NCBI GenBank assembly: GCA_030524175.1
Contig: JAUNHC010000003.1
Coordinates: 1-64,000, forward strand
Direction of reading: 5' to 3'
DNA length: 64,000 bases
Source: Eubacteriales bacterium
GTDB lineage: Bacteria > Bacillota > Clostridia > Lachnospirales > Lachnospiraceae
Within the stretch, counting starts at the first letter, position 1. The number at the start of each line of letters is the position of its first letter. The notes below the pieces were generated by a model. That model was given only the letters and a program-made list of their open reading frames with translations. It had not been told where the DNA came from and made no database searches. The position numbers and the translations under genes were made by a program. Positions 8,711-64,000 of the stretch are shown here, piece by piece.

Positions 8711-9874
8711 TTATTTTACCACGCGTACCTTGGCAACGCCTTCGATGGCGCCCAATTCATCCAGGGCTTCCCTGGAGGCTGTGCTTTCTAAATCAATAAG
8801 GGTATATGCGTATTCGCCTTTACTCTTATTTGTCATATCAGCAATATTGAGGCCCTCTCCGCCCAGGATCTGGGTGATCTGGCTGATGATATTAGGAATA
8901 TTCTTGTGAGTGATGGCAATTCTTCCCACTGCCACACAGGTACCCATGTCACAATTTGGAAAATTCACAGAATTCTTAATATTTCCATTTTCCAGGAAAT
9001 CACGGATTTCTTTCACAGCCATGACAGCACAGTTTTCTTCCGATTCCTCAGTGGATGCTCCCAAATGAGGAGTAACCAGGATTCCTTCTCTGCCTGCCAC
9101 AACAGGATTTGCAAAGTCAGTGACATATTTCTTAACCTTACCGGTTTCAAGGGCTTCAATAAGGGCTTCTTCGTCCACCAAAAGGTCACGGGCAAAGTTA
9201 AGAATGACAACGCCCTCTTTCATTCTGGCAAAGGCGTCCTTGTTGATCATTTTCTTTGTGCTGTCAAGAAGGGGCACATGGATCGTAATGTAATCACACT
9301 GGGTATAGATCTCGTCAAGAGATTTGCTGTGTTTGATGGTGCGTGACAGATTCCAGGCGGCATCAATGGAAATATATGGGTCATAACCGTAAACTTCCAT
9401 GCCAAGCTTGGAAGCAGCATTTGCCACCATGGCACCGATAGCCCCAAGCCCGATGATGCCAAGCCTTTTGCCGCTGATCTCACAGCCGGCAAACTGTTTC
9501 TTCTGCTTCTCTGCCAGCTTATCGATATCATCTCTGTCCTTCTGCTGTGCCACCCATTCAATACCCCCTACGATATCTCTGGAAGCCAGAAGCATACCTG
9601 CAAGGACAAGCTCTTTCACCCCGTTGGCGTTGGCTCCCGGTGTGTTAAATACTACAACTCCCTTTTCGGAGTATTCCTTCACAGGGATATTGTTTACCCC
9701 TGCTCCGGCACGTGCGATGGCAGCAACAGTCTCCGGAAGCTGGATGTCATGCATCTTGGCACTTCTCACAAGTATGGCATCAGAATTTTCTATGGCGTCA
9801 GATTTCTTATAAGCTTCATCAAACAACTGCAATCCTGTTTCAGAAATAGGATTCAGGCAATAATACTGATACAT
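8711..9874 (-). CDS. serA: D-3-phosphoglycerate dehydrogenase
   Basis: The 387-residue protein oxidises 3-phosphoglycerate to 3-phosphohydroxypyruvate, the first step of serine synthesis. The NAD-binding Rossmann motif GLGAIGAMVA, the catalytic Arg region (NFARDLLVDEEAL), and the catalytic His in TPHLGASTEES are visible; the C-terminal 75 residues form an ACT domain (NIISQITQILGGEGLNIADM) that probably senses serine. It is the short form with one ACT domain and no intervening domain. Its start overlaps the serC stop by one base (TAATG), so translation is coupled. Confidence 0.93.
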   Translation of the reverse strand: MYQYYCLNPISETGLQLFDEAYKKSDAIENSDAILVRSAKMHDIQLPETVAAIARAGAGVNNIPVKEYSEKGVVVFNTPGANANGVKELVLAGMLLASRDIVGGIEWVAQQKDRDDIDKLAEKQKKQFAGCEISGKRLGIIGLGAIGAMVANAASKLGMEVYGYDPYISIDAAWNLSRTIKHSKSLDEIYTQCDYITIHVPLLDSTKKMINKDAFARMKEGVVILNFARDLLVDEEALIEALETGKVKKYVTDFANPVVAGREGILVTPHLGASTEESEENCAVMAVKEIRDFLENGNIKNSVNFPNCDMGTCVAVGRIAITHKNIPNIISQITQILGGEGLNIADMTNKSKGEYAYTLIDLESTASREALDELGAIEGVAKVRVVK

Positions 9875-10956
9875 TACGCATTTTCCTCCTCAAACTTCTT
9901 CATAAAAGCAACCAGCGCTTCCACGCCTTCTTTTGGCATAGCATTATAGATACTTGCACGCATGCCGCCCACACTTCTGTGGCCTTTTAAATTCACAAGA
10001 CCTGCTGCTGTGGCTTCTTTGACAAATTTAGCATCTAAATCTTTGTCTCCTGTGACAAAAGGCACATTCATAAGAGAACGGTCCTTTGGCACTACAGTAC
10101 CTTTAAACATCTTGCTGCTGTCAAGAAAATCATAGAGGATTTTTGCTTTCTCTTCGTTGCGTTTCTTCATCTCTTCCAGACCGCCCATGGATTTCAGCCA
10201 TTTGAAAACCTTGCCGCATACATAGATACAATATGCATTGGGGGTATTGTAAAGGGAAGCAGCGTCTGAATGAGTCTTATAGGTCAGCATGGTAGGTGTT
10301 CCCGGAAGGACATCTTCTGTGATCAGGTCCTCGCGGATGATCACAATAACCATACCTGCAGGTCCGATATTCTTCTGCACGCCGCCGTAAATGATGCCGT
10401 ATTTCTCCACATCCACAGGCTCGGAAAGGAAACAGGAGGAAACATCTGCTACCAATGTCTTTCCCTTTGTATCCGGAAGTTCTTTGAATTTTGTTCCGTA
10501 GATCGTATTATTTTCACAGATATATACATAATCCGCATCCGGGCTTATGGGCAGATCACTGCAGTCTGGAATATAGGAAAAGGTTTCGTCCTCAGAAGTG
10601 GCAATCTTGTTGGCCTTGCCGTATTTCTGAGCTTCCTGGTAAGCCTTCTTTGCCCACTGGCCAGTAACTATGTAATCAGCCACCTTGTTCTTCATCAGGT
10701 TCATGGGAATCATGGCAAACTGCTGGGACGCGCCGCCCTGAAGGAACAATACCTTGTAGTTGTCAGGAATGTTCATCAGATCTCTTAAGTCCTGCTCCGC
10801 CTCGTCAATGATCTGCTGGAAAGCAGCACTTCTGTGGCTCATTTCCATGACAGACATCCCTGTTCCGCCATAATCCATCATTTCTTCTGCCACTTCTTTT
10901 AAAACCGGTTCCGGAAGAACCGCCGGTCCTGCGGAAAAATTATATACTCTGCTCAT
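9874..10956 (-). CDS. serC: Phosphoserine aminotransferase
   Basis: The 360-residue fold-type I PLP enzyme converts 3-phosphohydroxypyruvate and glutamate to phosphoserine. The N-terminus YNFSAGPAVLPEPVL, the GGASQQFAMIPMNL segment and the PLP lysine in IYGGVQKNIGPAGM are the family hallmarks. The C-terminal SVGGMRASIYNAMP is also typical. The start lies inside the end of ilvB (17-base overlap), and serA follows with a one-base overlap, so ilvB-serC-serA are translationally coupled. No phosphoserine phosphatase (serB) is nearby. Confidence 0.95.
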   Translation of the reverse strand: MSRVYNFSAGPAVLPEPVLKEVAEEMMDYGGTGMSVMEMSHRSAAFQQIIDEAEQDLRDLMNIPDNYKVLFLQGGASQQFAMIPMNLMKNKVADYIVTGQWAKKAYQEAQKYGKANKIATSEDETFSYIPDCSDLPISPDADYVYICENNTIYGTKFKELPDTKGKTLVADVSSCFLSEPVDVEKYGIIYGGVQKNIGPAGMVIVIIREDLITEDVLPGTPTMLTYKTHSDAASLYNTPNAYCIYVCGKVFKWLKSMGGLEEMKKRNEEKAKILYDFLDSSKMFKGTVVPKDRSLMNVPFVTGDKDLDAKFVKEATAAGLVNLKGHRSVGGMRASIYNAMPKEGVEALVAFMKKFEEENA

Positions 10957-12631
10957 CTTTTTTCATGTCCTCCTCGTCAAACACCTCATCAATATTTGCC
11001 CCTGCCGGCACCATAGGAAATACACTTAAATCCTGGTCGATCCAGCAATCCAGTACAATGGGGCCTTTTGCCGCCAGGGCTCTCTCCAATGCCGGCTCCA
11101 CCTCTTCTATTTTTGTCACACGGATTGCCTCTGCTCCCAATCCTTCCGCCACTTTCACGAAATCCACCGCGTCGTTTAAGATAGTATGAGAGTATCTGTG
11201 ATCATAGAACAATGTCTGCCACTGGCGTACCATTCCAAGAACGTGATTGTTCAGGATGATCTGGATCAATTGGTTGCCGCAGCGTACAGCTGTTGCAATT
11301 TCATTCATATTCATCCGGAAACATCCGTCCCCTGCTATATTTACCACTGTTTTCTCCGGCCTTCCCATCTTGGCGCCGATGGCAGCCCCAAGACCGTAAC
11401 CCATCGTTCCCAGGCCTCCGGAGGTAAGCAGGGTTCTTGGCTCTTTAAATTTATAATACTGGGCTGCCCACATCTGATGCTGCCCCACATCTGTGACAAC
11501 GATCGCATCTCCCTTTGTCATCTCATAGAGCTTTTCGATCACGTAGGGACCTGTGAGCTGTGTATGGTCATAATTCAGCGGATACCGCTCTTTTAATTCC
11601 TGGATATGGGCGATCCATTCCGGATGTTTTTTCTCCGGGATTTCTTCCAGAAGCCTTCTTAATGCCTCCTTGATATCACCTTCGATATAAGCATCCACCA
11701 CTACATTCTTGTTGATTTCCGCTGCGTCGATATCTATTTGAAGAATTTTTGCATTTTTTGCAAAAGTTTGAGCATTTCCTGTAACCCTGTCACTGAATCT
11801 TGCACCCAGCACGATCAGCAGGTCACATTGGCTTACGCCTAAATTAGAAGTCTTAGTCCCATGCATTCCCAGCATACCTGTATACAGAGGATCCTCCCCG
11901 GAAAAAGCACCTTTTCCCATGAGACTGTCACAGACCGGAGCCTGGATCCTGTGGGCTAATTCCGTAATCTCCTTATATGCCCCTGAGATAACAGCACCGC
12001 CGCCGTTAAAGATAAAAGGCTTCTCCGCTTCTTTGATCATACGGACTGCATTTTCCACATCAGCCTTCCTGATCTCGCTGGTCTCACGGTTTATGGTAGC
12101 CGGACGTCGGGGTGTATACTCATAGGCTGCCCCGGTAACGTCCTTGGTCACATCCACGAGCACAGGCCCGGGACGTCCGCTTTTTGCAATATAGAAAGCT
12201 TTGCGTATGGTATCCGCAAGCTTGGTGATATCTTTTACAATGTAGCTGTGCTTGGTAATAGGCATCACGATCCCCGCAATATCAACCTCCTGGAAAGAAT
12301 CCCTTCCTAAAAGAGCTTTTCCTACATTGGCCGTGATGGCAACCACCGGCACGGAATCCATAAACGCTGTGGCAATACCTGTCACAAGGTTCGTAGCTCC
12401 GGGACCTGAAGTAGCGAGGCATACGCCCACCTTTCCGGTGGCTCTGGCATAGCCGTCGGCTGCATGGGAAGCTCCCTGTTCATGGGAGGTCAATACATGG
12501 GTGATCTCATCCCTGTATTCATAAAGGGCATCGTAAACATTAAGGATAGCCCCTCCCGGATATCCGAATACAGTGTCAACGCCCTGCTCTTTCAGACATT
12601 CAACAATTATTTCTGCTCCTGTCAACTGCAT
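10940..12631 (-). CDS. ilvB: Acetolactate synthase, catalytic subunit
   Basis: The 563-residue thiamine-diphosphate enzyme condenses two pyruvates (or pyruvate and 2-ketobutyrate) in the first common step of branched-chain amino acid synthesis. The catalytic Glu region (HEQGASHAADGYARATG), the central FAD-type domain (GGGAVISGAY), and the ThDP motif (GDGCFRMNMNEIATAVRCGN) are intact. No small regulatory subunit gene (ilvN/ilvH) adjoins it, and ilvC is absent from this operon, so both must be elsewhere. It lies 12 bp after ilvD and overlaps serC. Confidence 0.93.
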   Translation of the reverse strand: MQLTGAEIIVECLKEQGVDTVFGYPGGAILNVYDALYEYRDEITHVLTSHEQGASHAADGYARATGKVGVCLATSGPGATNLVTGIATAFMDSVPVVAITANVGKALLGRDSFQEVDIAGIVMPITKHSYIVKDITKLADTIRKAFYIAKSGRPGPVLVDVTKDVTGAAYEYTPRRPATINRETSEIRKADVENAVRMIKEAEKPFIFNGGGAVISGAYKEITELAHRIQAPVCDSLMGKGAFSGEDPLYTGMLGMHGTKTSNLGVSQCDLLIVLGARFSDRVTGNAQTFAKNAKILQIDIDAAEINKNVVVDAYIEGDIKEALRRLLEEIPEKKHPEWIAHIQELKERYPLNYDHTQLTGPYVIEKLYEMTKGDAIVVTDVGQHQMWAAQYYKFKEPRTLLTSGGLGTMGYGLGAAIGAKMGRPEKTVVNIAGDGCFRMNMNEIATAVRCGNQLIQIILNNHVLGMVRQWQTLFYDHRYSHTILNDAVDFVKVAEGLGAEAIRVTKIEEVEPALERALAAKGPIVLDCWIDQDLSVFPMVPAGANIDEVFDEEDMKKDEQSI

Positions 12632-12643
12632 TTATACCCCTCC

Positions 12644-14317
12644 TTATTTCGCTTTTGGTATCTCTAAGATAGCGCCTCTGTTGCCTGAGGTGACCATAGC
12701 TGCATATCTTGCCAGATATCCTGTTGTCACTTTCGGCTCCCTGGGCTGCCATTTTTCTCTTCTCAAACGCATCTCCTCATCTGAAACCTTCACTTCCAGT
12801 TTCAGCTCCGGGATATTGATACTGATAATATCTCCTTCTTCAATAAGAGCAATAGGACCGCCTACAGCCGCTTCCGGGGAAACATGGCCGATGGAAGCCC
12901 CCCTGGATGCACCGCTGAAACGTCCGTCTGTGATAAGTGCCACTGAAGAGCCAAGACCCATTCCTGCAATAGCGGAGGTAGGATTAAGCATCTCTCTCAT
13001 GCCAGGTCCGCCCTTAGGCCCTTCGTAACGGATGACCACCACATCGCCTGCCGTGATCTTACCGCCTTTGATGGCTTCAATGGCATCCTCTTCACATTCA
13101 AAGACGCGGGCCGGGCCTTCATGTACCATCATCTCTTCCACAACTGCAGAACGTTTAACAACACCGCCGTCCGGAGCCAGATTTCCTTTCAGTACAGCCA
13201 GACCGCCGGTTTCACTGTATGGGTTATCAATGGGACGTATTACCTCAGGATTCAGGTTTGCACATCCTGCAATGTTTTCTCCTACTGTCTTTCCGGTCAC
13301 TGTTATGCAGTCTGTATGGAGAAGTCCCTTTTTATTTAATTCGTTCATCACAGCATAGACGCCGCCAGCTTCATTTAAATCCTCTATATATGTGGGACCT
13401 GCCGGTGCAAGGTGGCACAGGTTAGGAGTCTTCTCGCTGATTTCATTGGCAAAGCTGATATCGAAATCCATTCCGATCTCATGTGCGATGGCCGGAAGAT
13501 GGAGCATACTGTTGGTGGAACATCCAAGTGCCATATCCACTGTCAGCGCATTTAAAACAGCATCCTCTGTTATGATGTCTCTCGGACGGATATTCCTGCG
13601 GTACATTTCCATCACCTGCATGCCTGCATGTTTTGCAAGACGGATACGCTCAGAATAAACAGCCGGGATCGTTCCGTTTCCGGGAAGTCCCATACCCAGA
13701 ACCTCGGTGAGACAGTTCATGCTGTTGGCTGTGTACATACCGGAACAAGAACCGCAGGTAGGACAAGTTTTTTCTTCATACTCGGCAAGGCCTTCTTCAG
13801 AAAGATTACCTGCCGCATAAGCGCCTACTGCCTCAAACATACTTGACAAGCTGGTTTTGTGCCCGTTGATATGTCCTGCCATCATCGGTCCGCCGCTGAC
13901 AAATACAGTCGGTACGTTAATTCTGGCTGCTGCCATCAAAAGCCCCGGTACGTTCTTGTCACAGTTAGGCACCATGACAAGTGCATCAAACTGATGAGCC
14001 AAGGCCATGGCTTCTGTTGAATCTGCGATCAAATCCCTGGTAACCAGGGAATATTTCATCCCTACGTGTCCCATTGCAATTCCGTCACATACAGCGATCG
14101 CCGGGAAAACAACAGGAGTTCCCCCTGCCATTGCCACGCCCTGCTTCACTGCATCCACGATCTTATCAAGATTCATATGTCCCGGTACGATCTCATTATA
14201 GGAGCTGACAATACCCACCATGGGCCGTTCCATTTCTTCCTTTGTCATACCAAGGGCATTAAACAAGGAACGGTGGGGTGCCTGCTGTGCCCCTTTTCTT
14301 ACTGCATCACTTCTCAT
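12644..14317 (-). CDS. ilvD: Dihydroxy-acid dehydratase
   Basis: The 557-residue enzyme dehydrates 2,3-dihydroxy-isovalerate and -methylvalerate to the 2-keto acids of valine and isoleucine. The iron-sulfur cysteines are visible in PNCDKNVPG and [19 protein letters not shown], and the [19 protein letters not shown] segment of the C-terminal domain is standard. The length equals that of bacterial IlvD. It follows leuB by 28 bp and precedes ilvB by 12 bp in one leftward operon. Confidence 0.95.
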
Positions 14318-14345
14318 TATCGATTCCTCTCCTTTATCTCCGTCG

Positions 14346-15428
14346 TTAAATCGCCTCTGCGATCAAATCTCCCATTTCTTTCGTTCCCACGAGCCTGCAG
14401 CCCTCAGACATAATGTCCCCTGTGCGGTATCCGGCTGTCAGTACCTTCTGAACCGCAGCTTCCACAGCATCTGCCTCACTGTCAAGATCCAGGGAATAGC
14501 GCAGCATCATGGCAGCCGACAAGACAGTGGCTATAGGGTTTGCCTTGTTCTGGCCTGCAATATCCGGTGCTGAACCATGACTTGGCTCATACAGGCCAAG
14601 CTTCGTCTCGTTTAAGCTTGCGGAAGACAGCATTCCGATGGAACCTGTCACCATACTTGCTTCATCTGACAGAATATCTCCAAACATATTCTCTGTCAGA
14701 ATAACATCAAACTGCTTAGGATCACGGACAAGCTGCATCGCACAGTTATCCACCAGCATATGCTCCAGAACCACATCCGGATAATCCTTGGCAACTTCTT
14801 CCACCACGCTTCTCCACAGTCTGGAGGAATCAAGCACATTCGCTTTATCCACGCTTGTGACCCTGCTGCCCCGTTTGCGGGCAATGTCAAAAGCCTTCAC
14901 TGCTATGCGGCGGATTTCATTCTCATCATAGGCAAGAGTGTCAATGGCTTTCCTGACACCATTCTCCTCCACAGTCTTTCTCTCTCCGAAATAGAGTCCT
15001 CCTGTAAGCTCACGCACAATGATCATGTCGAAGCCGTCCCCGATGATCTCATCTCTTAAAGGGCAGGCATCTCTCAGCTCATTATATAAATATGCCGGGC
15101 GCAGGTTTGCAAAGAGATTAAGTGCCTTACGGATGGCAAGAAGTCCTGCCTCCGGGCGTTTGGACGGTTCCAGCTGATACCATGGCGATGTCTTGGCATC
15201 CCCGCCGATAGATCCCATCAAAATGGCATCGGAAGCCTTCGCCTCTTCCACAGCTTCCTCTGTAAGCGGTATCCCATGTACATCTATGGAAGCTCCCCCA
15301 AGCAGAACCTCTGAATATGTAAAAGTATGGCCGTATTTCTCACAGACCTTATCCAGCACTTTCTTTGCTTCTCTCACAATTTCAGGCCCGATCCCATCAC
15401 CGGGAATCAATGCAATCTTATAGTTCAT
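14346..15428 (-). CDS. leuB: 3-isopropylmalate dehydrogenase
   Basis: The internal start [18 protein letters not shown] at 15428 follows GAGGACT and gives 360 residues, the usual LeuB size; the longer frame lacks a ribosome site. The enzyme oxidatively decarboxylates 3-isopropylmalate with NAD in leucine synthesis. Motifs seen are the substrate-binding [17 protein letters not shown], the divalent-metal aspartates in DNCAMQLV and DILSDEASM, and the NAD-binding [14 protein letters not shown]. It is the first gene of the leuB-ilvD-ilvB-serC-serA operon; leuA and leuCD are not in the window. Confidence 0.94.
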
Positions 15429-15459
15429 AGTCCTCGTTCCTTTCATCTGACAGAGTATT

Positions 15460-15494
15460 GTTATTATAATAACGCACTTTTCGTCAGATTTCAA
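15460..15494 (-). promoter_or_regulatory. Operon promoter with a perfect palindrome over the -10 box
   Basis: On the minus strand TTGAAA (15494-15489) and TATTAT (15471-15466) are 17 bp apart. A perfect 14-bp palindrome, GTTATTATAATAAC at 15460-15473, covers the -10 box, and an outer ATCTGAC/GTCAGAT pair surrounds it. A repressor operator for the amino-acid operon is a reasonable inference; no T-box is present. Confidence 0.55.
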
Positions 15495-15535
15495 CCTATT
15501 AAAGTGAAAAATCATTAAAACTCAAAATGGCTTAT

Positions 15536-55119: not shown

Positions 55120-55152
55120 CAATACAAAGATAACCGAAAGGGAGTGCTCTCA

Positions 55153-57438
55153 ATGGCTACATTAAAAGACATTGCCAAAGACGCCGGTGTCTCCATTGCC
55201 ACTGTTTCCTGCTGCCTGAGCGGAAGTAAGCCGGTAAAAGCCGAGACCCGTATGCGCATTATGGATTCCATAGAAAAACTGAAATACATTCCAAACTGGT
55301 CTGCCAGAAATTTGAAATCCTATCACTCTAATTTAATTGGGGTTGTACTGACCGATATTGACAATCTTTATCATTCAGAAATATTTAAGGGAATTTCGGC
55401 GTACCTGCAGAATCAAGATTTTACAGTCAGTGTTGCGTTTTCCAATAATTCTCCGGATATAGAATGTCAGAAAATTGAAGATTTTATCAGTCAGAACGCC
55501 GCCGGTCTTATTATCATAACCTGTCAGCCACAAAACACTGACTTTTTCCGCAGCAGGATTTTGAATTATCAGATTCCTACTGTTTTCATCGAGCGGGCCC
55601 CGGAAAACCTATTTGCTAATTTTACCGGTTTTGATAATTATCAGACAGCCTTTTATCTGACTGCAAAGCTGCTCAAAAAAGGCTATAAAAAACCAGCCTT
55701 AATTTGCGGGCCGGTTCATTTTTCTTCCGAGAATGACAGTATAAGAGGGTACAAGGATGCATTGTTTGACAGCGGGATCAAAGCTGATGACAGTCTGATC
55801 TGCTCCACCAATATGTCTAAAGAGGATGCTTTTAAGTCAGTTCTCACAGAAATCTGTACTCAGACTCCTGACTCTGTCATAACTACCTCTGAGAATATGG
55901 CGCTTGGTGCTATAGAGGCTTTTAATACTTATGGCCTGACGATTCCCGATTCTGTACGGATTATTACTTACAGCGAAGAATCCTGGAATAAAGCCTCTCG
56001 CATCCCAGGTGTTATCCATACAGAGCGTACTGCCTTCCGCCTTGGCCAGTCCGCTTCGGAATTATTACTGCAGAATATAAAATCTCCTGCTTTGTTTGAG
56101 CCGAAGATCATCAGTATGGAAGATCCCGTGATATATGGAGAGCTTCCCCTGCCGGGACGTGACAGTCTGATTGTTCCCGGCCCTACTGTTCACACAAATA
56201 AGCTGAAGGTTTTAATGGTGGACCTAGCCACTTCACGCTCTATATTTCTGCTGTCTGATTACTTCACACGTAAAACCGGAATAGCTTTGGAATTTGATTT
56301 CTATCCTCAAAACCAAATGCTGGACCGTATTTCCCATACCATTGACACAGATGCGGCTTATGATATACATATGTACGATGTTCCCTGGCTGAATTTTATG
56401 GTCCAGAACACCTTTGTATCAGATATCTCGGACTTCATAAACAGTCCTTCTTTTCATAAAAAAACAATATTTAAGGAAAATATGGATAATTGTAAATGTG
56501 AAGGCCAATATTATGGTATCCCTATTATCGGCGGTTCACAGATCATGTTCTACAGAAAAGATTTATTTGAAAACCGCCAGATAGTCAAGGCCTTTCAAAA
56601 CCGTTATCAGATTTCCCTCCGCCCGCCTAAAACGTGGACCGAATTTAACGGAACTGCCCGTTTCTTTACCCGCAGTTTTAACCCTGATTCACCGACGGAA
56701 TATGGAACCTCCTTTGCAGGAATCACCGATGAAGAGCTGGCACCGGAAATCCTGATCCGACTGTGGGCTTATGGCGGTATGCTCTGGGATGCTTATAACC
56801 GCCCCCAGCTTTATTCTCCTGAAAATGTACGGGCCATGGAAAGTATTCTGCAAACCTTACAGTATACAGAAAGAAATCCCTTTTGCACCTCTATTGCCGA
56901 CACAGTAGCCGATTTTTCCTCTGGAAAAACTGCCATGCTTATTACCTATACAGAATATGCCGCCCAGATTACAAACGGCATCCACAACAATACTATCGGA
57001 CGTATCGGGTATGAAATACTTCCTGGCAAATGTCCTGCCAGCATCGGCTGGAATATGGGCCTGAATCCTTTTTCGAAGAATACTGCCGCTGCATTTGCTT
57101 ACTTTGACTGGCTGACCCAGCATGACACAAGTTATTACATGACGATACTGGACGGCCAGTCTCCTGTAATAGCTCCTTATCACAGTCAGGAATTATTAAA
57201 GCTTTATCCCTGGCTTGGCATTACAGAACGCAGCTTTTCCTATACGCACAAAAGGACCGGACCATACAAAAATAATACTCTGATCATTCCCCAAAATAAA
57301 ATCGAAGCCATTCTTTGTAATGTGCTGCACCAGATTTTGGAAGATGGTATCTCCATTGAGGAGGCATTGAAGAAAAACGAAGAAAGTATGAAGCACCTGT
57401 TCCACTCCTACGGCTATCCAAAACCTCTGTGCCGTTGA
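55153..57438 (+). CDS. LacI regulator fused to a solute-binding domain
   Basis: The start MATLKDIAKDAGVSIATVS at 55153 follows GGGAG. The 761 residues comprise a LacI helix-turn-helix and hinge (1-58, with the SARNLKS hinge), a LacI sugar-sensing domain (about 60-330, LIGVVLTDIDNLYHSEIFKG; GFDNYQTAFYLTAKLL) and, from about 350, a family 1 extracellular-solute-binding domain (ALEFDFYPQNQMLD; IHMYDVPWLNFMV; YYGIPIIGGSQIMFYRKDLF; RPPKTWTEFNGTARFFT; GWNMGLNPFSKN). There is no signal peptide or membrane helix, so the second binding domain works in the cytoplasm, probably as a second ligand sensor. It diverges from the transport operon it presumably controls through the TCTAAACGTTTAGA sites. One terminator follows. 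Confidence 0.88.
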   Translation: MATLKDIAKDAGVSIATVSCCLSGSKPVKAETRMRIMDSIEKLKYIPNWSARNLKSYHSNLIGVVLTDIDNLYHSEIFKGISAYLQNQDFTVSVAFSNNSPDIECQKIEDFISQNAAGLIIITCQPQNTDFFRSRILNYQIPTVFIERAPENLFANFTGFDNYQTAFYLTAKLLKKGYKKPALICGPVHFSSENDSIRGYKDALFDSGIKADDSLICSTNMSKEDAFKSVLTEICTQTPDSVITTSENMALGAIEAFNTYGLTIPDSVRIITYSEESWNKASRIPGVIHTERTAFRLGQSASELLLQNIKSPALFEPKIISMEDPVIYGELPLPGRDSLIVPGPTVHTNKLKVLMVDLATSRSIFLLSDYFTRKTGIALEFDFYPQNQMLDRISHTIDTDAAYDIHMYDVPWLNFMVQNTFVSDISDFINSPSFHKKTIFKENMDNCKCEGQYYGIPIIGGSQIMFYRKDLFENRQIVKAFQNRYQISLRPPKTWTEFNGTARFFTRSFNPDSPTEYGTSFAGITDEELAPEILIRLWAYGGMLWDAYNRPQLYSPENVRAMESILQTLQYTERNPFCTSIADTVADFSSGKTAMLITYTEYAAQITNGIHNNTIGRIGYEILPGKCPASIGWNMGLNPFSKNTAAAFAYFDWLTQHDTSYYMTILDGQSPVIAPYHSQELLKLYPWLGITERSFSYTHKRTGPYKNNTLIIPQNKIEAILCNVLHQILEDGISIEEALKKNEESMKHLFHSYGYPKPLCR

Positions 57439-57542: not shown

Positions 57543-59015
57543 CTAATCCAATACCTTCTCCAGCTCATCGATCACAGTCTTCAGAGCTTTTATGCGTGCG
57601 TACTTCTTATCTACAGATTCCAGAATATGCCACGGGGCATAGGCAGTGCTTGTCTTTTGAAGCATTTCATTGACAGCAACCTCATAATCATCCCATTTCT
57701 CCCGGTTCCGCCAGTCCTCATCTGTGATTTTCCACTGCTTCTCAGGATTCTTCTGGCGCTCAGTAAACCGTGCAAGCTGTGTGTCCTTATCAATCTGGAC
57801 CCAGAATTTGATTATGACAGCACCCCAGTCAGAAAGCTCCTTCTCAAATTCATTCATCTCATTGTATGCCCGTTTCCAGTCATTTTCGCTGCAGAAGACC
57901 TCAAGACGTTCCACCATAACACGCCCGTACCAGGTTCTGTCAAAAATAGCAATGTGTCCGTCCTTGGGAAGTCTTGTCCAGAAGCGCCACAGATAATGGC
58001 GTGCTTTTTCATGGGGTTCAGGGCTGGCAATGGGATGCACCTCAAAACCTCTGGGGTCAAGTGCCTCTGTAATACGCTTTATGTTGCCGCCCTTGCCTGC
58101 AGCATCCCAGCCTTCGTAAGTAATGATCACAGGTACGCGCTTACGGTACACCCTGTTATGAAGTTCACCTAATTTTTTCTGAAGGTGCTTCAGCTCTGCC
58201 TTATACTCGTCCTCCTCAATCTCCTTGCCTTCAAGCTCTATGTCAGCAAGCTTGGGCATTTTCACGAGAGGAAATACATTCTGGAGTATGGGAACAGAAT
58301 GGGCGCTGTTCTGCATAGCCACTTCAATATTGCTCACCATTGTCTCCAGAACCTGCAGCTCTGCCCATTTTTTATCAACGGCATCTACCAAGTACCAGGG
58401 GGCAGTGGATGTATTGGTATCTGCAAGATATTTGTCAAAAACCTTCCTGCATTTTTTATAATGCTCATTCTGCCATTTATCAAATCCGGCTACGCGCCAC
58501 CGGGTATCCTTATCCGACAGCAGCCGCTCCATGCGCCGTGTCTGCTCCTCCCTGTCCAGCTGCATGAAAAACTTAAGCACCAGATACCCATTATCAGTGA
58601 GCTGACGCTCAAATCTTTTGATACTGTCAATTCTCTTAGTGTAATCCTCTCCCCTTAATTCTCCAGCCAGACAGTCCTTGCACGTCTGCTCCATCCAGCC
58701 GGAATCCAGGAAGGTAAATTTCCCTGATTCCGGTATTTCTTTAAAATACCGGTACAAAAACGGCCTGCGAAGTTCATCCGCCGTGGGCGCAGACATAGTT
58801 GCAACCTTAAAAAACCTGGGATCGATATTTTTGATTATTTTCCCTATGGTACTTCCCTTACCGGAAGCTCCCCACCCTTCAAAAAGCACCAGCACCGGAA
58901 GCTTATGCTCTTTTATTCTCATCTGCAGCTCATACAGTTTACTGCGGGCCGTATCCAGCCGCTCCTTTAACTCATCTTTGTCCGGAATGTCTGCCGGATT
59001 CCAATTCTTCAACAT
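57543..59015 (-). CDS. Double-domain PPK2-type polyphosphate kinase
   Basis: The 490-residue protein contains two PPK2 domains. The C-terminal one (about 275-490) has an intact Walker A (YEGWDAAGKGGNIKR) and the catalytic FDRTWYGRV. The N-terminal one (about 10-240) keeps GWGASGKGSTIGKI but has LDSGWMEQTC in place of DRSWY, so it is probably structural. This is the class II layout known as polyphosphate:AMP phosphotransferase, which makes ADP from AMP and polyphosphate in the cytoplasm. It is a single gene with a GAGGTG ribosome site and about 190 bp of AT-rich sequence upstream. Confidence 0.88.
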   Translation of the reverse strand: MLKNWNPADIPDKDELKERLDTARSKLYELQMRIKEHKLPVLVLFEGWGASGKGSTIGKIIKNIDPRFFKVATMSAPTADELRRPFLYRYFKEIPESGKFTFLDSGWMEQTCKDCLAGELRGEDYTKRIDSIKRFERQLTDNGYLVLKFFMQLDREEQTRRMERLLSDKDTRWRVAGFDKWQNEHYKKCRKVFDKYLADTNTSTAPWYLVDAVDKKWAELQVLETMVSNIEVAMQNSAHSVPILQNVFPLVKMPKLADIELEGKEIEEDEYKAELKHLQKKLGELHNRVYRKRVPVIITYEGWDAAGKGGNIKRITEALDPRGFEVHPIASPEPHEKARHYLWRFWTRLPKDGHIAIFDRTWYGRVMVERLEVFCSENDWKRAYNEMNEFEKELSDWGAVIIKFWVQIDKDTQLARFTERQKNPEKQWKITDEDWRNREKWDDYEVAVNEMLQKTSTAYAPWHILESVDKKYARIKALKTVIDELEKVLD

Positions 59016-59203
59016 ATGACTTCACCTCATTTTCTGTCTTCTCGTGATATATTATTATATAATGAAAATATTATAGCATAAAACTCCAGTTATTTCGACC
59101 ATTTTTCTTCAATTCCTGATTTTTTCCATGGTTTTTTTATGATATAATTATGGATATTCAGTCACGTAAGCTGAAATTTATACATAGAAAGGAAGTTTCT
59201 TCC

Positions 59204-59797
59204 ATGCCTTTATCTGTTTTTATTGACATGACTATTTCAGCCTGTATCACGGTCTGGTCGCCGGGGCCCAACAACATTCTTCTGCTGTCAACAGCCAGCA
59301 AATACGGCGTAAAGAAAAACCTCCGCCTGATGCTTGGTATCTGGACCGGCTCCTTGAGCCTCATGTTCCTGAGCGGCATTTTCTGCAGCGCTTTAGGTAC
59401 AGTGATTCCGGGAATCCAGCCTATTATGAAGTATATCGGTGCAGCCTATATTTTATACCTGGCCTGGCAGACTTACCACCGCAGCCCTCCGTCAGAGAAC
59501 AGTGCGGACAAAGAGCCTTCCTACCTGATGGGACTTATCCTCCAGCTCCTGAATGTAAAAATAATCATCTATGGGCTGACTATGTTCTCTTCCTTCATCT
59601 TGCCTCACGAACAAAGGATACCCGTATTGATTCTTCTGGCCTTTTATCTGATGATAATTGGTGCAATAGGAAATCTTATCTGGGCCTTTGCGGGAAATGT
59701 GCTGAAACATTTTTACAATGACCACTATAAGCTGATGAATATTATAATGGCCCTGCTTCTTGTGTGGTGTGCTCTGCGTATAACCGGATTTTTATAA
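59204..59797 (+). CDS. LysE-family exporter
   Basis: The start MPLSVFIDMTISACITVWSP at 59204 follows AAAGGAAG by eight bases; 197 residues. Six membrane helices and the motif WSPGPNNILLLSTASKYGVKKN near the N-terminus define the LysE/RhtB superfamily of amino acid and metabolite exporters. The C-terminus ends in a hydrophobic helix (IIMALLLVWCALRITGFL). The exported compound is unknown. A TATAAT box lies at 59143-59148. Confidence 0.88.
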   Translation: MPLSVFIDMTISACITVWSPGPNNILLLSTASKYGVKKNLRLMLGIWTGSLSLMFLSGIFCSALGTVIPGIQPIMKYIGAAYILYLAWQTYHRSPPSENSADKEPSYLMGLILQLLNVKIIIYGLTMFSSFILPHEQRIPVLILLAFYLMIIGAIGNLIWAFAGNVLKHFYNDHYKLMNIIMALLLVWCALRITGFL

Positions 59798-60008: not shown

Positions 60009-63000
60009 TTAACGGAACGCTTCCACTAATTCAGCACCGTCTGTGTAATCCTGCTTTTCCAGCTCCTCTGTAAACCAGCTGTCAATGCCCTCTACAGCTT
60101 CCCTGAAGGAATCGATATCCATCTCGTCATTCTCTGTAAAGGCAACTCCGTTTTTATCCTGCCACCGGCTCATGATCTCTTCATCACCGGAGCGGTTGAT
60201 ATAACGCTCATATTCCACTGCCTTTTGGCCCGCTTCATCCACAACAGCCTGCTGTTCAGGTGTGAGACTGTCATAAATCTCCTGGTTAATACAGAAGAAC
60301 AGACAGTCATAAATCGTATTCCACAGAGAGCAGTACGGCTGTACCTCCTGTACGCTTGCAGCGTCAATGGCCGGAAGGGGATTCTCCTGGCCTTCCACTG
60401 TATTCTGCTGTAATGCAGTATAAGTCTCTGACCAGTTCATGCTGGTGGCGTCCGCGCCCCACCGTTTGTAGCATTCCATGAGCAGGTTCGAACCTGCCAC
60501 ACGGATTTTCAGGTTTTTCATATCATCCACTGTTTTTACTTCATGGACACTGTTGGTAAGCTGACGGAAACCGTTCTCTGCTATTCCCATACAGTGCAGG
60601 CCGTATTCCTCCAGCACCTCTTTCAGCTTCTCTCCTCCCTCGCCGTCAAGCTTGGCGTCTGCGTCTTCTACAGAATCAAACAAAAACGGAAGAGATACCA
60701 CATTAAATCTGGGATCAAAAGCCGAATAAATCAGATTGGAATGCATGGAAATCTGTACCGGATCACCATTCATGAGAGCCTGGATTCCCTCTGACTGGTT
60801 TCCGTTGGTAAGCTGGTCGGCTGCATAAACATTAACCTTCACCTTACCTCCTGAGGCCTTTTCCATCAATTCTCCGAACTTACGCCCGCCCTCGGCCCAG
60901 GTACTCGTCTCTGTTGTGGAACAGGTAAAATTCCAGGTCATTTCCGGCCAGTCCAGATCACTGTGATCTGCCACATCATAGTTACCGGCAGCATCGGAAA
61001 CAAAAGTCTCAACAAGTTCTTCTGCATCCTGGTAACCCTGGCTTTCCAGTTCTTGGATAAACCAGTCTTCAACACCGTCCACATCAGCGCGGAAAGATTC
61101 CATATCCATATCTTCTTTTTTTGTAAAGAGAACACCGTTCTTTTCTTCCCAGCGGCTCATTATTTCTGAATCACCGGAGCGGTTGATGTATCGCTCATAT
61201 TCCACTGCCTTTTGTCCCGCTTCATCTACAACAGCCTGCTGTTCTTCCGTGAGTCCCTCATAAATCTCCTGGTTTACACAGAAGAACAGACAGTCATAAA
61301 TGGCATCCCAGAGTGAGCAGTAGGGCTGTACCTCCTGTACACTGGCAGCATCGATAGCGGGAAGGGGGTTCTCCTGGCCTTCCACTGTATTCTGCTGTAA
61401 TGCAGTATAAGTCTCTGACCAGTTCATGCTGGTGGCATCCGCGCCCCATCTCTTATAACATTCCATGAGAAGGTTCGAACCTGCCACACGGATTTTCAGG
61501 TTTTTCATATCATCCGAAGATTTCACTTCGTGGACACTGTTGGTAAGCTGGCGGAAGCCATTCTCTGCAATACCCATACAGTGAAGTCCGTATTCCTCCA
61601 AAATTTCCTTCATCTTATCCCCGGCAGCACCGTCGAACTTGGCATCAGCATCTTCCACCGAATCAAAAAGGAAGGGAAGGGATACCACATTAAATCTGGG
61701 ATCAAAAGCTGAATAAATCAGGTTCGAATGCATGGAAATCTGTACGGGATCCCCATTCATCAAAGCCTGGATACCTTCTGACTGGTTTCCGTTGGTAAGC
61801 TGGTCGGCTGCATAAACATTAACCTTTACCTTACCTCCCGTGGCCTGCTCCATAAGCTGGCCGAATTTTTCCCCTGCCTTAGCCCAGGTACTTGTCTCTG
61901 TAGTGGAGCATGCAAAATTCCAGGTCATTTCCGGCCAGTCCAGATCACTGTAATCTGCGATCTGGTCAAAAGAATTTTGTTCCCCGCCTTCCGGTGAATC
62001 GCTCTGCACTGTTGTCTGCTGATCCCCCGTATAAGCGCCGTCTTTTGCCAGAACTTTCGGAAGTCCCACGGAAACAGCAGGCACATATGTGACAATAAGA
62101 AGAACTGCCACACTGACAGCGATCATAGGCACCACTGCTTTGGAAATCTGCTGAAGGGTAACTTCAAGTCCCTTTTTAATCTTGATTCCGATCGCCACGA
62201 AGAGATTCACCCCAACTGGCGGTGTCACCTGGCCGATGGCAAGGTTCACGGTAGCCATAACACCGAAAGCTACCACATCATATCCCAATGCTTTGCACAC
62301 CGGAAGCATGATAGGAATAAATATGTACATTGCAGAGTTTGCATCAATAAAGCAGCCTGCGATAAGAAAGATAACATTCACGATCAACAGGAAAATGATC
62401 TGATTGCTGGCGATCCCTCCCAGAAGCCCAGATGCCGCCCCCGCAATTCCAAACTTGGTACATACAAAAGAAAACAGGGAGGCGCTGGCAACGATGAGCA
62501 TAATGCCGCCTGTTGTTTTCGCGGAGTCTACCAGGATATCCATTAAATCTCTAAAGGAAACCTCCCGGTAAATGACCATTCCCACAAACAGTCCATACAC
62601 AACAGACACTGCTGCAGCCTCTGTAGGCGTGAAAATACCTCCGTAAATCCCCCCAAGAATGATAACCGGCATTAAAAATCCCCAGAAAGCATCCTTAAAA
62701 GCAACCCAGCGTTCTTTTCCAGTAGCCTTCTGCTGGGTAGGCTGGATATTCTTCTTTCTTGCTTCCACCATAACTACTATAACAAGAGCCACTCCCATAA
62801 GTATACCGGGAACGATACCTGCCATAAACATATCTGCAATAGAAACACCTGTGATGGAGGCGTAAACTACAAAAGCGATACTTGGGGGTATGACAATGGC
62901 TATAGAGCTTGCCGTAGCCATCAGCGCTGTTGAGAAGGACGGGGAAAATCCCCCTCTCTCCACCATAGCGGGAACCAGAACTGCCCCAAGGGCCGCAACC

Positions 63001-63338
63001 GTAGCCGGGCCGGAGCCGGAAATGGCCCCGAAGAAGCAGGCTACGATAACACAGACTATGGCGATCCCCCCTCTTCTGTGCCCCACACAGGTATCAACGA
63101 ATTTGATCAGCCGTTTGGAAATTCCGGCCCTGGCCATAATATTTCCCGACAAAACGAAAAACGGAATGGCCAGCAGAAGGAATTTACTGATGCCCGAGTA
63201 CATGTTCGTTGCCACAATTGTAAGGGAAGTACCTGAATAGATAATAGCGCAGACTGATGAAAGTCCGAGACAAATACCAATAGGAACACCCAGAACCAGG
63301 AAAATAAAAAATGAAATAAAAAGAATTGCACTTATCAT
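60009..63338 (-). CDS. TRAP large permease fused to two tandem solute receptors
   Basis: The 1109-residue protein is a single uninterrupted frame. Residues 1-430 are DctM, with about 12 helices and the family motifs FVLSGNIMARAGISKRLIKF, FGAISGSGPATVAALG and TPPVGVNLFVA. After a linker of about 30 polar residues, two DctP receptors follow: about 463-790 and 792-1109, at a period of exactly 329 residues (987 bp). Both contain ADQLTNGNQSEGIQALMNGD, LPFLFDSVEDADAK and the carboxylate-binding Arg in LKIRVAGSNLL. Receptors are normally free or lipid-anchored; here they are tethered to the permease, which needs the DctM C-terminus to face outward. The middle of the two receptors is almost identical, a sign of recent duplication or gene conversion. 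It abuts dctQ. Confidence 0.9.
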   Translation of the reverse strand: MISAILFISFFIFLVLGVPIGICLGLSSVCAIIYSGTSLTIVATNMYSGISKFLLLAIPFFVLSGNIMARAGISKRLIKFVDTCVGHRRGGIAIVCVIVACFFGAISGSGPATVAALGAVLVPAMVERGGFSPSFSTALMATASSIAIVIPPSIAFVVYASITGVSIADMFMAGIVPGILMGVALVIVVMVEARKKNIQPTQQKATGKERWVAFKDAFWGFLMPVIILGGIYGGIFTPTEAAAVSVVYGLFVGMVIYREVSFRDLMDILVDSAKTTGGIMLIVASASLFSFVCTKFGIAGAASGLLGGIASNQIIFLLIVNVIFLIAGCFIDANSAMYIFIPIMLPVCKALGYDVVAFGVMATVNLAIGQVTPPVGVNLFVAIGIKIKKGLEVTLQQISKAVVPMIAVSVAVLLIVTYVPAVSVGLPKVLAKDGAYTGDQQTTVQSDSPEGGEQNSFDQIADYSDLDWPEMTWNFACSTTETSTWAKAGEKFGQLMEQATGGKVKVNVYAADQLTNGNQSEGIQALMNGDPVQISMHSNLIYSAFDPRFNVVSLPFLFDSVEDADAKFDGAAGDKMKEILEEYGLHCMGIAENGFRQLTNSVHEVKSSDDMKNLKIRVAGSNLLMECYKRWGADATSMNWSETYTALQQNTVEGQENPLPAIDAASVQEVQPYCSLWDAIYDCLFFCVNQEIYEGLTEEQQAVVDEAGQKAVEYERYINRSGDSEIMSRWEEKNGVLFTKKEDMDMESFRADVDGVEDWFIQELESQGYQDAEELVETFVSDAAGNYDVADHSDLDWPEMTWNFTCSTTETSTWAEGGRKFGELMEKASGGKVKVNVYAADQLTNGNQSEGIQALMNGDPVQISMHSNLIYSAFDPRFNVVSLPFLFDSVEDADAKLDGEGGEKLKEVLEEYGLHCMGIAENGFRQLTNSVHEVKTVDDMKNLKIRVAGSNLLMECYKRWGADATSMNWSETYTALQQNTVEGQENPLPAIDAASVQEVQPYCSLWNTIYDCLFFCINQEIYDSLTPEQQAVVDEAGQKAVEYERYINRSGDEEIMSRWQDKNGVAFTENDEMDIDSFREAVEGIDSWFTEELEKQDYTDGAELVEAFR

Positions 63339-63836
63339 TTATTTATCCTCCTTTTTCTTATCTTTTGTACAGAAATCAATGCAGTATTCTATAAAATGAA
63401 GAATCATGCAACCTGCACCGATGGGAACAAAGGACCAGAAAATCCATTCCGGCCAATTCAGCACAAAGGTACGCTTACCATTGGCAAGCTGGGTGATAAC
63501 CTTATCCATACCATACTTAAACAAAATTACTGTAAAAATAATACTGAGCACAGTAATGAGAATGACGGACGGCTTGCGCAGCTTATCCGGAAGCCGGTCT
63601 GTGAACAGTGTCAGACTGACCAGTTCTCCCTCCCTGCAGGAAAGAGCTGCTGCCAGCAAAGTGATCAAAACAAAGACCGCCACCACAAGCTCCTCTGTAA
63701 AGGACCAGGAACGGTGGATGACCTTACGGGAAAACACGTTTCCCACAGTGAGTACCAGAATCAGAAGCAAAGACACGATCAGAAGAACTTTCTCCACTGA
63801 TGCCACTGCGTTCATGATTTTTTTGTAAGTTTTCAT
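63339..63836 (-). CDS. TRAP transporter small permease DctQ
   Basis: The 165-residue protein has four membrane helices (starting about 15, 50, 90 and 132) and the DctQ pattern VGNVFSRKVIHRSWSFTEELVVAVFVLITLLAAALSCREGEL (seen as NVFSRKVIHRSWSFTEEL and AALSCREGEL). With DctM it forms the membrane part of a Na+-driven TRAP importer. A strong GGAGGAG site precedes the start and the downstream fusion gene begins at the next base. It follows a T-box leader. Confidence 0.9.
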   Translation of the reverse strand: MKTYKKIMNAVASVEKVLLIVSLLLILVLTVGNVFSRKVIHRSWSFTEELVVAVFVLITLLAAALSCREGELVSLTLFTDRLPDKLRKPSVILITVLSIIFTVILFKYGMDKVITQLANGKRTFVLNWPEWIFWSFVPIGAGCMILHFIEYCIDFCTKDKKKEDK

Positions 63837-63894
63837 TCTATCTCCTCCTCTTGGTTACTTCCGGCTTCAGGATCGGATCAAGGATTACATGCAC

Positions 63895-64000
63895 AAAAAA
63901 ATCCGCCCCAAACTAGGGACGGACAATAATCCGCAACCACCCTGTTTCCCTTTTGAAACAAGTACGATCCTGCAACGTACCGGCATACGCGGTTCCGGTA
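63895..64000 (-). promoter_or_regulatory. T-box leader (3' part) of the TRAP operon
   Basis: On the minus strand the T-box core AGGGTGGTTGCGG (63943-63931) is followed by CCGTCCCT, giving the antiterminator pairing AGGG...CGG/CCG-TCCCT with the TGG bulge that binds tRNA ACCA. The same CCGTCCC can pair with GGGGCGGA to form a terminator followed by seven T (63923-63895). Upstream, TACCGG/CCGGTA forms a further stem. The specifier loop lies beyond the end of the window, so the tRNA is not known. Confidence 0.8.

Follow-up and report, generated by a model that had tools for sequence, protein, structure and literature searches.

By computational analysis of the first 64,000 nucleotides of contig JAUNHC010000003.1 (forward strand; hereafter the window) from an Eubacteriales bacterium of the family Lachnospiraceae (assembly GCA_030524175.1), we found a T-box leader with the specifier codon AUC, for isoleucine, in front of a minus-strand operon for a tripartite ATP-independent periplasmic (TRAP) transporter. 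The permease DctM of this transporter carries a fused pair of DctP binding domains, and the leader, its structure and its codon recur in front of related transporters. The switch and its amino acid appear well supported, as firmly as sequence allows. We think it probable that this isoleucine T-box, acting through a terminator, drives a sodium-coupled TRAP importer of isoleucine or of a carboxylate feeding isoleucine.

The leader lies across the end of the window, whose positions are also those of the contig (Table 1). An earlier note on this DNA had placed the AGGGTGGTTGCGG core of a T-box, its CCGTCCCT partner and a competing terminator with seven T on the minus strand, 5' of dctQ, and had proposed T-box control of the TRAP operon; all three elements lie where it put them, far beyond chance, and its suggestions to extend the contig past 64,000, apply the Rfam T-box model RF00230 and read the specifier codon each bore out the proposal. 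Scanned as a whole contig with cmscan, the element matches RF00230 over 219 of 219 model positions (107.0 bits, E = 6e-24, against a gathering cut-off of 93 bits), with stem I and the specifier loop beyond 64,000. When the window alone was scanned, Rfam gave no T-box there, either at the gathering cut-off or at E ≤ 1, because the window ends in the middle of the leader and stem I lies beyond it. That silence is what would favour a chance motif that is not a T-box, a notion of negligible probability that is refuted by the full-length match together with the compensatory changes among relatives described below. In the draft genome, where 150 of 202 first-look candidates were scored, T-boxes were matched 13 times at E ≤ 0.001, and 8 of these matches pass the cut-off. 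Matches to microRNA and snoRNA families that came out near threshold were regarded as noise. A promoter scan of the leader region returned two sites, as compared with 0.7 in shuffled sequences. The possibility raised by the earlier note that the leader belongs to an aminoacyl-tRNA synthetase gene was rejected, as no synthetase gene lies between the leader and dctQ and the upstream gene encodes an amidohydrolase.

In the 3' part of the leader an antiterminator overlaps the competing intrinsic terminator. For the terminator piece the folding energy is -16.8 kcal/mol (z = -3.9), a stability equalled by none of 200 shuffles. In an alignment of 23 leaders (A2, which leaves out those of loci L063, L065, L067, L071, L084 and L101), 26 of the 55 predicted consensus pairs show a two-sided change in at least one leader, and a covarying stem is predicted between columns 110-116 and 162-168. 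In 22 of these leaders the antiterminator has the sequence GGGTGGTTGCGG or GGGTGGTTACGG. Its bulge in these 22 is UGGUU, two bases shorter than the UGGUACC of the Rfam consensus, if the G-U pair after the bulge forms; in L057, L115, L060 and L070 an A-U pair replaces that G-U. Seven bases is the usual length of the antiterminator bulge. L072 carries two extra bases (UGGUUGA), and a seven-base version also occurs in L039, L063, L067, L071, L101, L065 and L084. The ileS T-box of the same genome (L013, C92:99208-99464, plus strand) has UGGUUUA where the consensus has UGGUACC.

The specifier was read by eye with a simple rule, namely a codon, one nucleotide, and then eight nucleotides ending in GAG; the TBDB paper, in the part available to us, prioritises the same specifier frame (PMC7778990). 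In this genome ten T-boxes precede a gene that could be named from its protein start, and each time the rule gave the amino acid expected: CUC for leuS and leuA, UUC for pheT, UAC for tyrS, UGG for trpE and trpB, ACU for thrS, GUA for valS, CCG for proS and AUC for ileS. Of the two remaining T-boxes, one reads UGG and precedes an ABC transporter operon, and the other reads AUG and could not be assigned to a gene. The leader under study reads GAAA-AUC-A-UCCCCGAG, which specifies isoleucine and shares GAAA-AUC-A with the ileS leader. AUC occupies the specifier place in 28 of 28 related leaders, a search whose pattern itself required ATC; the base before it is G in 9, A in 4, T in 12 and C in 3, and the base after it A in 23 and C in 5. 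In an alignment made without the AUC requirement, all 23 leaders likewise agree at the three codon columns and vary at both neighbouring bases; the six other leaders were read separately. Other specifier frames were ruled out because only AUC is constant while both of its neighbours vary. At the other contact, the UGGU of the antiterminator fits tRNA-Ile(GAU), which carries discriminator A in the two near-complete relatives where it was found.

The arrangement is conserved among relatives. In a genus sample of 60 genomes, the genome under study included, 18 encode a transporter closely related to this one, with the T-box in front of it in 17 of them. We further collected 76 loci in named genomes, drawn from the best 80 of 152 matches; they include near-duplicates and are not independent, L090 and L115 being two halves of one genome. 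A T-box precedes the transporter at 29 of the 76, among them L103, whose leader, truncated where the contig ends, was read separately. On a carefully built permease tree the T-box requires 7 changes as compared with a mean of 23.7 when shuffled, and is therefore stable where present: it is found in a single large clade centred on Blautia, though not in every member, and in L101 and L103, which form a distant pair. Among named relatives, Blautia schinkii DSM 10518 comes closest (protein 92% identical); the L101 protein is only 59% identical, yet its leader keeps AUC. The fused transporter was also seen in metagenome-assembled contigs assigned to Treponema or Treponemataceae (L075, L087 and L112), where no T-box was found; either the gene moved between phyla or these spirochaete-named contigs are misbinned.

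The transporter itself is unusual in its build. DctQ, DctM and DctP domains are encoded together, with PF04290, PF06808 and two stretches of PF03480 over their cut-offs, as are the transporter models TIGR00786 and TIGR00787. The permease takes up about residues 1-427 of the fusion protein and is followed by the two DctP domains. The earlier note had recognised the TRAP operon and its T-box but overlooked this fusion. The two DctP copies are identical at 272 of 319 aligned residues (85%), with the middle of the domain almost unchanged, and therefore probably bind the same ligand. R596, R617 and N657 of the first binding domain and R925, R946 and N986 of the second are invariant in 20 sequences; we take such residues in DctP proteins to hold a carboxylate. 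Among the 76 loci, four DctP domains are fused at 1, three at 6, two at 22 and one at 28, whereas DctP is encoded by separate genes at 18 and only two DctP domains lie within the available sequence at 1 (L090). In these counts L069 is entered with two domains, the last being interrupted, and L115 with one, cut by the contig end; copy numbers in metagenome-assembled genomes may also err through collapse of repeats. The locus with four domains, L059 from a Robinsoniella metagenome-assembled genome, encodes a protein of 1799 aa. Two frames, of 967 aa and 152 aa, divide the last DctP domain between them in L069 (Blautia massiliensis) and in G004:C4, through either a real interruption or a sequencing error. 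On a quick tree of 77 selected DctP domains, copies of one genome often cluster (for example in L060, L064, L072, L075, L079 and L089), a pattern that points to duplication on several occasions or to exchange among the copies. According to the part of a review available to us, DctM has its N terminus outside and 12 helices; its C terminus, and with it the fused DctP domains, should therefore lie on the outer side of the membrane.

From these features we infer the tRNA response, the direction of transport, the membrane side, the ion coupling and the cargo as follows. The leader would be an isoleucine-specific T-box acting by transcription termination. Uncharged tRNA-Ile(GAU) would pair with the AUC specifier and, through its ACCA end, with the UGGU of the antiterminator; in the tRNA-bound leader formation of the terminator would be prevented, allowing expression of dctQ and of the dctM-dctP-dctP fusion. 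The product would be a sodium-coupled TRAP importer with two near-identical binding domains tethered at the outer face of its permease. The earlier note had deduced from the regulation that the cargo is an amino acid, a keto- or hydroxy-acid precursor or a derivative, which is a reasonable inference; the likeliest cargo would be isoleucine itself or a carboxylate leading to it, for example the corresponding 2-oxo acid, 3-methyl-2-oxopentanoate. In the leuB-ilvD-ilvB cluster of the window no T-box was found in front, so the importer, and not that cluster, is under an isoleucine T-box.

Several observations weigh against this picture. Both stem I alone (z = -1.0) and the antiterminator piece (z = -0.7) are no more stable than shuffled sequences; folding energy therefore gives no support there, and the support comes from covariation. 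The tRNA-Ile(GAU) pattern found its tRNA in only 2 of 6 genomes, with none in the draft genome or in the single-contig genomes G001 and G038. One congeneric genome, G045, has the transporter and no T-box, and 47 of the 76 loci, some of them within the T-box-bearing clade, show none, a count in which upstream sequence is absent at L090, L104, L107, L121, L124 and L126 and scarce at L087, L108 and L110; moreover, our stem I model R1 was partly built from the same leaders, and its misses elsewhere are no proof of absence. No T-box was found in 11 other TRAP loci with 1.5 kb covered on each side of dctM, which is a weak control as at least two of these operons start with dctP and a leader may fall outside; nor did the T-box search place one close to the genome's other dctM (C23:100464). 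The solved binding proteins nearest in sequence are 7bbr, 4p8b and 4p47, matches that come with no ligand names. The genome has ilvA, ilvB, ilvC and ilvD, and ilvC occurs in all 18 congeneric carriers of the transporter (in 17 over the cut-off), so that lost isoleucine synthesis was ruled out as the reason for the importer; a citramalate synthase match stayed below the cut-off in the search. The anti-correlation with BrnQ in the genus is slight (1/18 versus 11/42, p = 0.09; 1/15 versus 5/21, p = 0.37, in genomes at least 90% complete), and the case for the transporter as a BrnQ replacement is weak.

A T-box that does answer to isoleucine could nevertheless have been copied to the operon from another isoleucine T-box and retained there as a general signal of starvation governing an importer of some organic acid off the isoleucine pathway. 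T-boxes are considered to spread through being duplicated and inserted in front of genes (PMC2494555, in the part available), and in L065 and L084 an ileS-like gene that has an isoleucine T-box of its own is found close to the TRAP operon; the L084 gene, cut by the locus end, scores 567 bits with the ileS model, below the cut-off, and that of L065 was judged from its start only. The many relatives of the transporter without a T-box, and the naming of the closest solved binding proteins as ordinary DctP proteins, point the same way. We consider this rather unlikely in view of the retention of AUC in every one of the 28 leaders, down to the distant L101, and of the stability of the T-box on the permease tree.

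We find it improbable, though worth setting out, that the TRAP system imports a branched 2-oxo or amino acid while a neighbouring LysE/RhtB-family transporter exports an amino acid, the pair balancing the branched-chain pool. Within flanks of up to 4 kb, 28 of the 76 loci have a LysE homologue, whose order and orientation vary, and the clusters that rank next among non-TRAP neighbours reach 7 and 5 loci. In L064 and L089 the homologue follows the fusion gene by about 10 bp on the same strand, behind the isoleucine T-box; of the 28 homologues, that of L064 was checked with Pfam, as was the gene of the window. In the window, however, the gene is convergent and stands outside the operon, and the only NCBIfam match of its protein is to a cysteine/O-acetylserine exporter model, below the cut-off of that model. 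Furthermore, 48 of the 76 loci have no LysE homologue in the flanks covered, some of the 28 lie several kb off, and the direction of transport is itself deduced.

The reading we prefer, an isoleucine T-box driving an isoleucine-related TRAP importer, resembles known systems in part. The leader shares the AUC in stem I, the UGGU and the competition between antiterminator and terminator with the isoleucine T-box leaders of ileS, LIVCS/BrnQ-type and ABC genes, and differs from them in its target, a TRAP transporter. Section 10 of a 2008 survey, taken without the supplementary list, names MFS, APC, NSS, DAACS, LIVCS, NhaC and ABC as transporter families under T-box control, TRAP being absent, and isoleucine T-boxes in the available part of that survey precede ABC and LIVCS genes (PMC2494555). 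Our literature search, with two older T-box surveys and TBDB outside its scope, returned no paper that pairs a T-box with a TRAP transporter; TBDB likely holds an uncommented entry for this leader. With DctP-type TRAP transporters, including the M-P fusion of Acidaminococcus intestini (G4Q5D7), the operon shares a DctQ, a DctM permease and a DctP domain. In the parts of the papers available to us, that M-P fusion is described as a rare case (PMC9352664) and Q-P fusions as rare (PMC8276074), and tandem DctP copies find no mention in those parts of PMC5812351, PMC8276074, PMC12344293 and PMC9352664; unlike the A. intestini fusion, the loci examined here carry one to four tandem DctP domains per DctM. 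GlnPQ-type ABC importers of Gram-positive bacteria also tether tandem binding domains to a permease (PMC8025302, available part), but they are ABC and not TRAP systems, and their domains differ in ligand specificity whereas the DctP copies here are highly alike. The TAXI-GltS fusions of Lachnospiraceae likewise join a binding protein to a secondary transporter (PMC12344293, available part), although they belong to other binding-protein and permease families and have the binding domain at the N terminus.

The more specific description, in which a TRAP importer of isoleucine or its 2-oxo acid has one to four tandem tethered binding domains and is governed by an isoleucine T-box whose bulge has lost two bases and kept UGGU, is in our judgement evenly poised between right and wrong. 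If it holds, TRAP would be a further transporter family under T-box control, with a branched-chain cargo. What a TRAP transporter carries is difficult to tell from its sequence, and the amino acid named by the leader provides a direct prediction that can be tested by a simple binding assay. The series from one to four tethered domains would also be a natural experiment on tethering and copy number in bacteria without a periplasm.

Table 1 Features of the T-box leader, the TRAP operon and neighbouring genes. Positions are those of the window, or of the contig where so marked.
Feature	Position	Strand	Basis or remark
T-box leader, 3' part	63912..64000	-	RF00230; whole element contig 63912-64151
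Specifier AUC	contig 64062-64060	-	contig sequence, outside window
Promoter-like TTGACG-17-TAAAAT	contig 64215-64187	-	promoter scan, outside window
Antiterminator	63915..63943	-	AGGG, bulge UGGUU (63939-63935), GCGGA ... UCCGU, CCCU; sequence and consensus pairing of 23 leaders
AGGGTGGTTGCGG core	63943-63931	-	sequence
CCGTCCCT partner	63922-63915	-	sequence
Competing intrinsic terminator	63895..63924	-	hairpin 63924-63901, seven T at 63901-63895
dctQ, TRAP small permease subunit, 165 aa	63339..63836	-	PF04290, E = 6e-32
dctM-dctP-dctP fusion, 1109 aa	60009..63338	-	PF06808 and two PF03480 stretches
LysE/RhtB-family transporter gene, 215 aa, convergent	59150..59797	+	PF01810
Amidohydrolase gene, upstream neighbour	contig 64244-65854	-	same strand as TRAP operon
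leuB-ilvD-ilvB	10940-15515		within window

Other genes of branched-chain metabolism occur around the system. In the window, the minus-strand run at 8711-15515 comprises leuB-ilvD-ilvB and then serC- and serA-like genes, the latter two judged from their protein starts. The TRAP operon of L067 and an ilvB gene are divergent; this ilvB has its own T-box reading GUA, for valine, and is followed by an ilvN-like gene, as judged from its start. We count this neighbourhood, and that of the ileS-like genes in L065 and L084, among the points in favour of the isoleucine reading. Two further genes of the window were seen on the other side of the LysE/RhtB-family gene. At 55144-57438 (plus strand) lies the gene for a 764-aa LacI-family regulator with an extra C-terminal solute-binding-like domain (SBP_bac_1), and at 57543-59015 (minus strand) that for a 490-aa protein with two PPK2 domains, whose score with the polyphosphate:AMP phosphotransferase model exceeds the cut-off.

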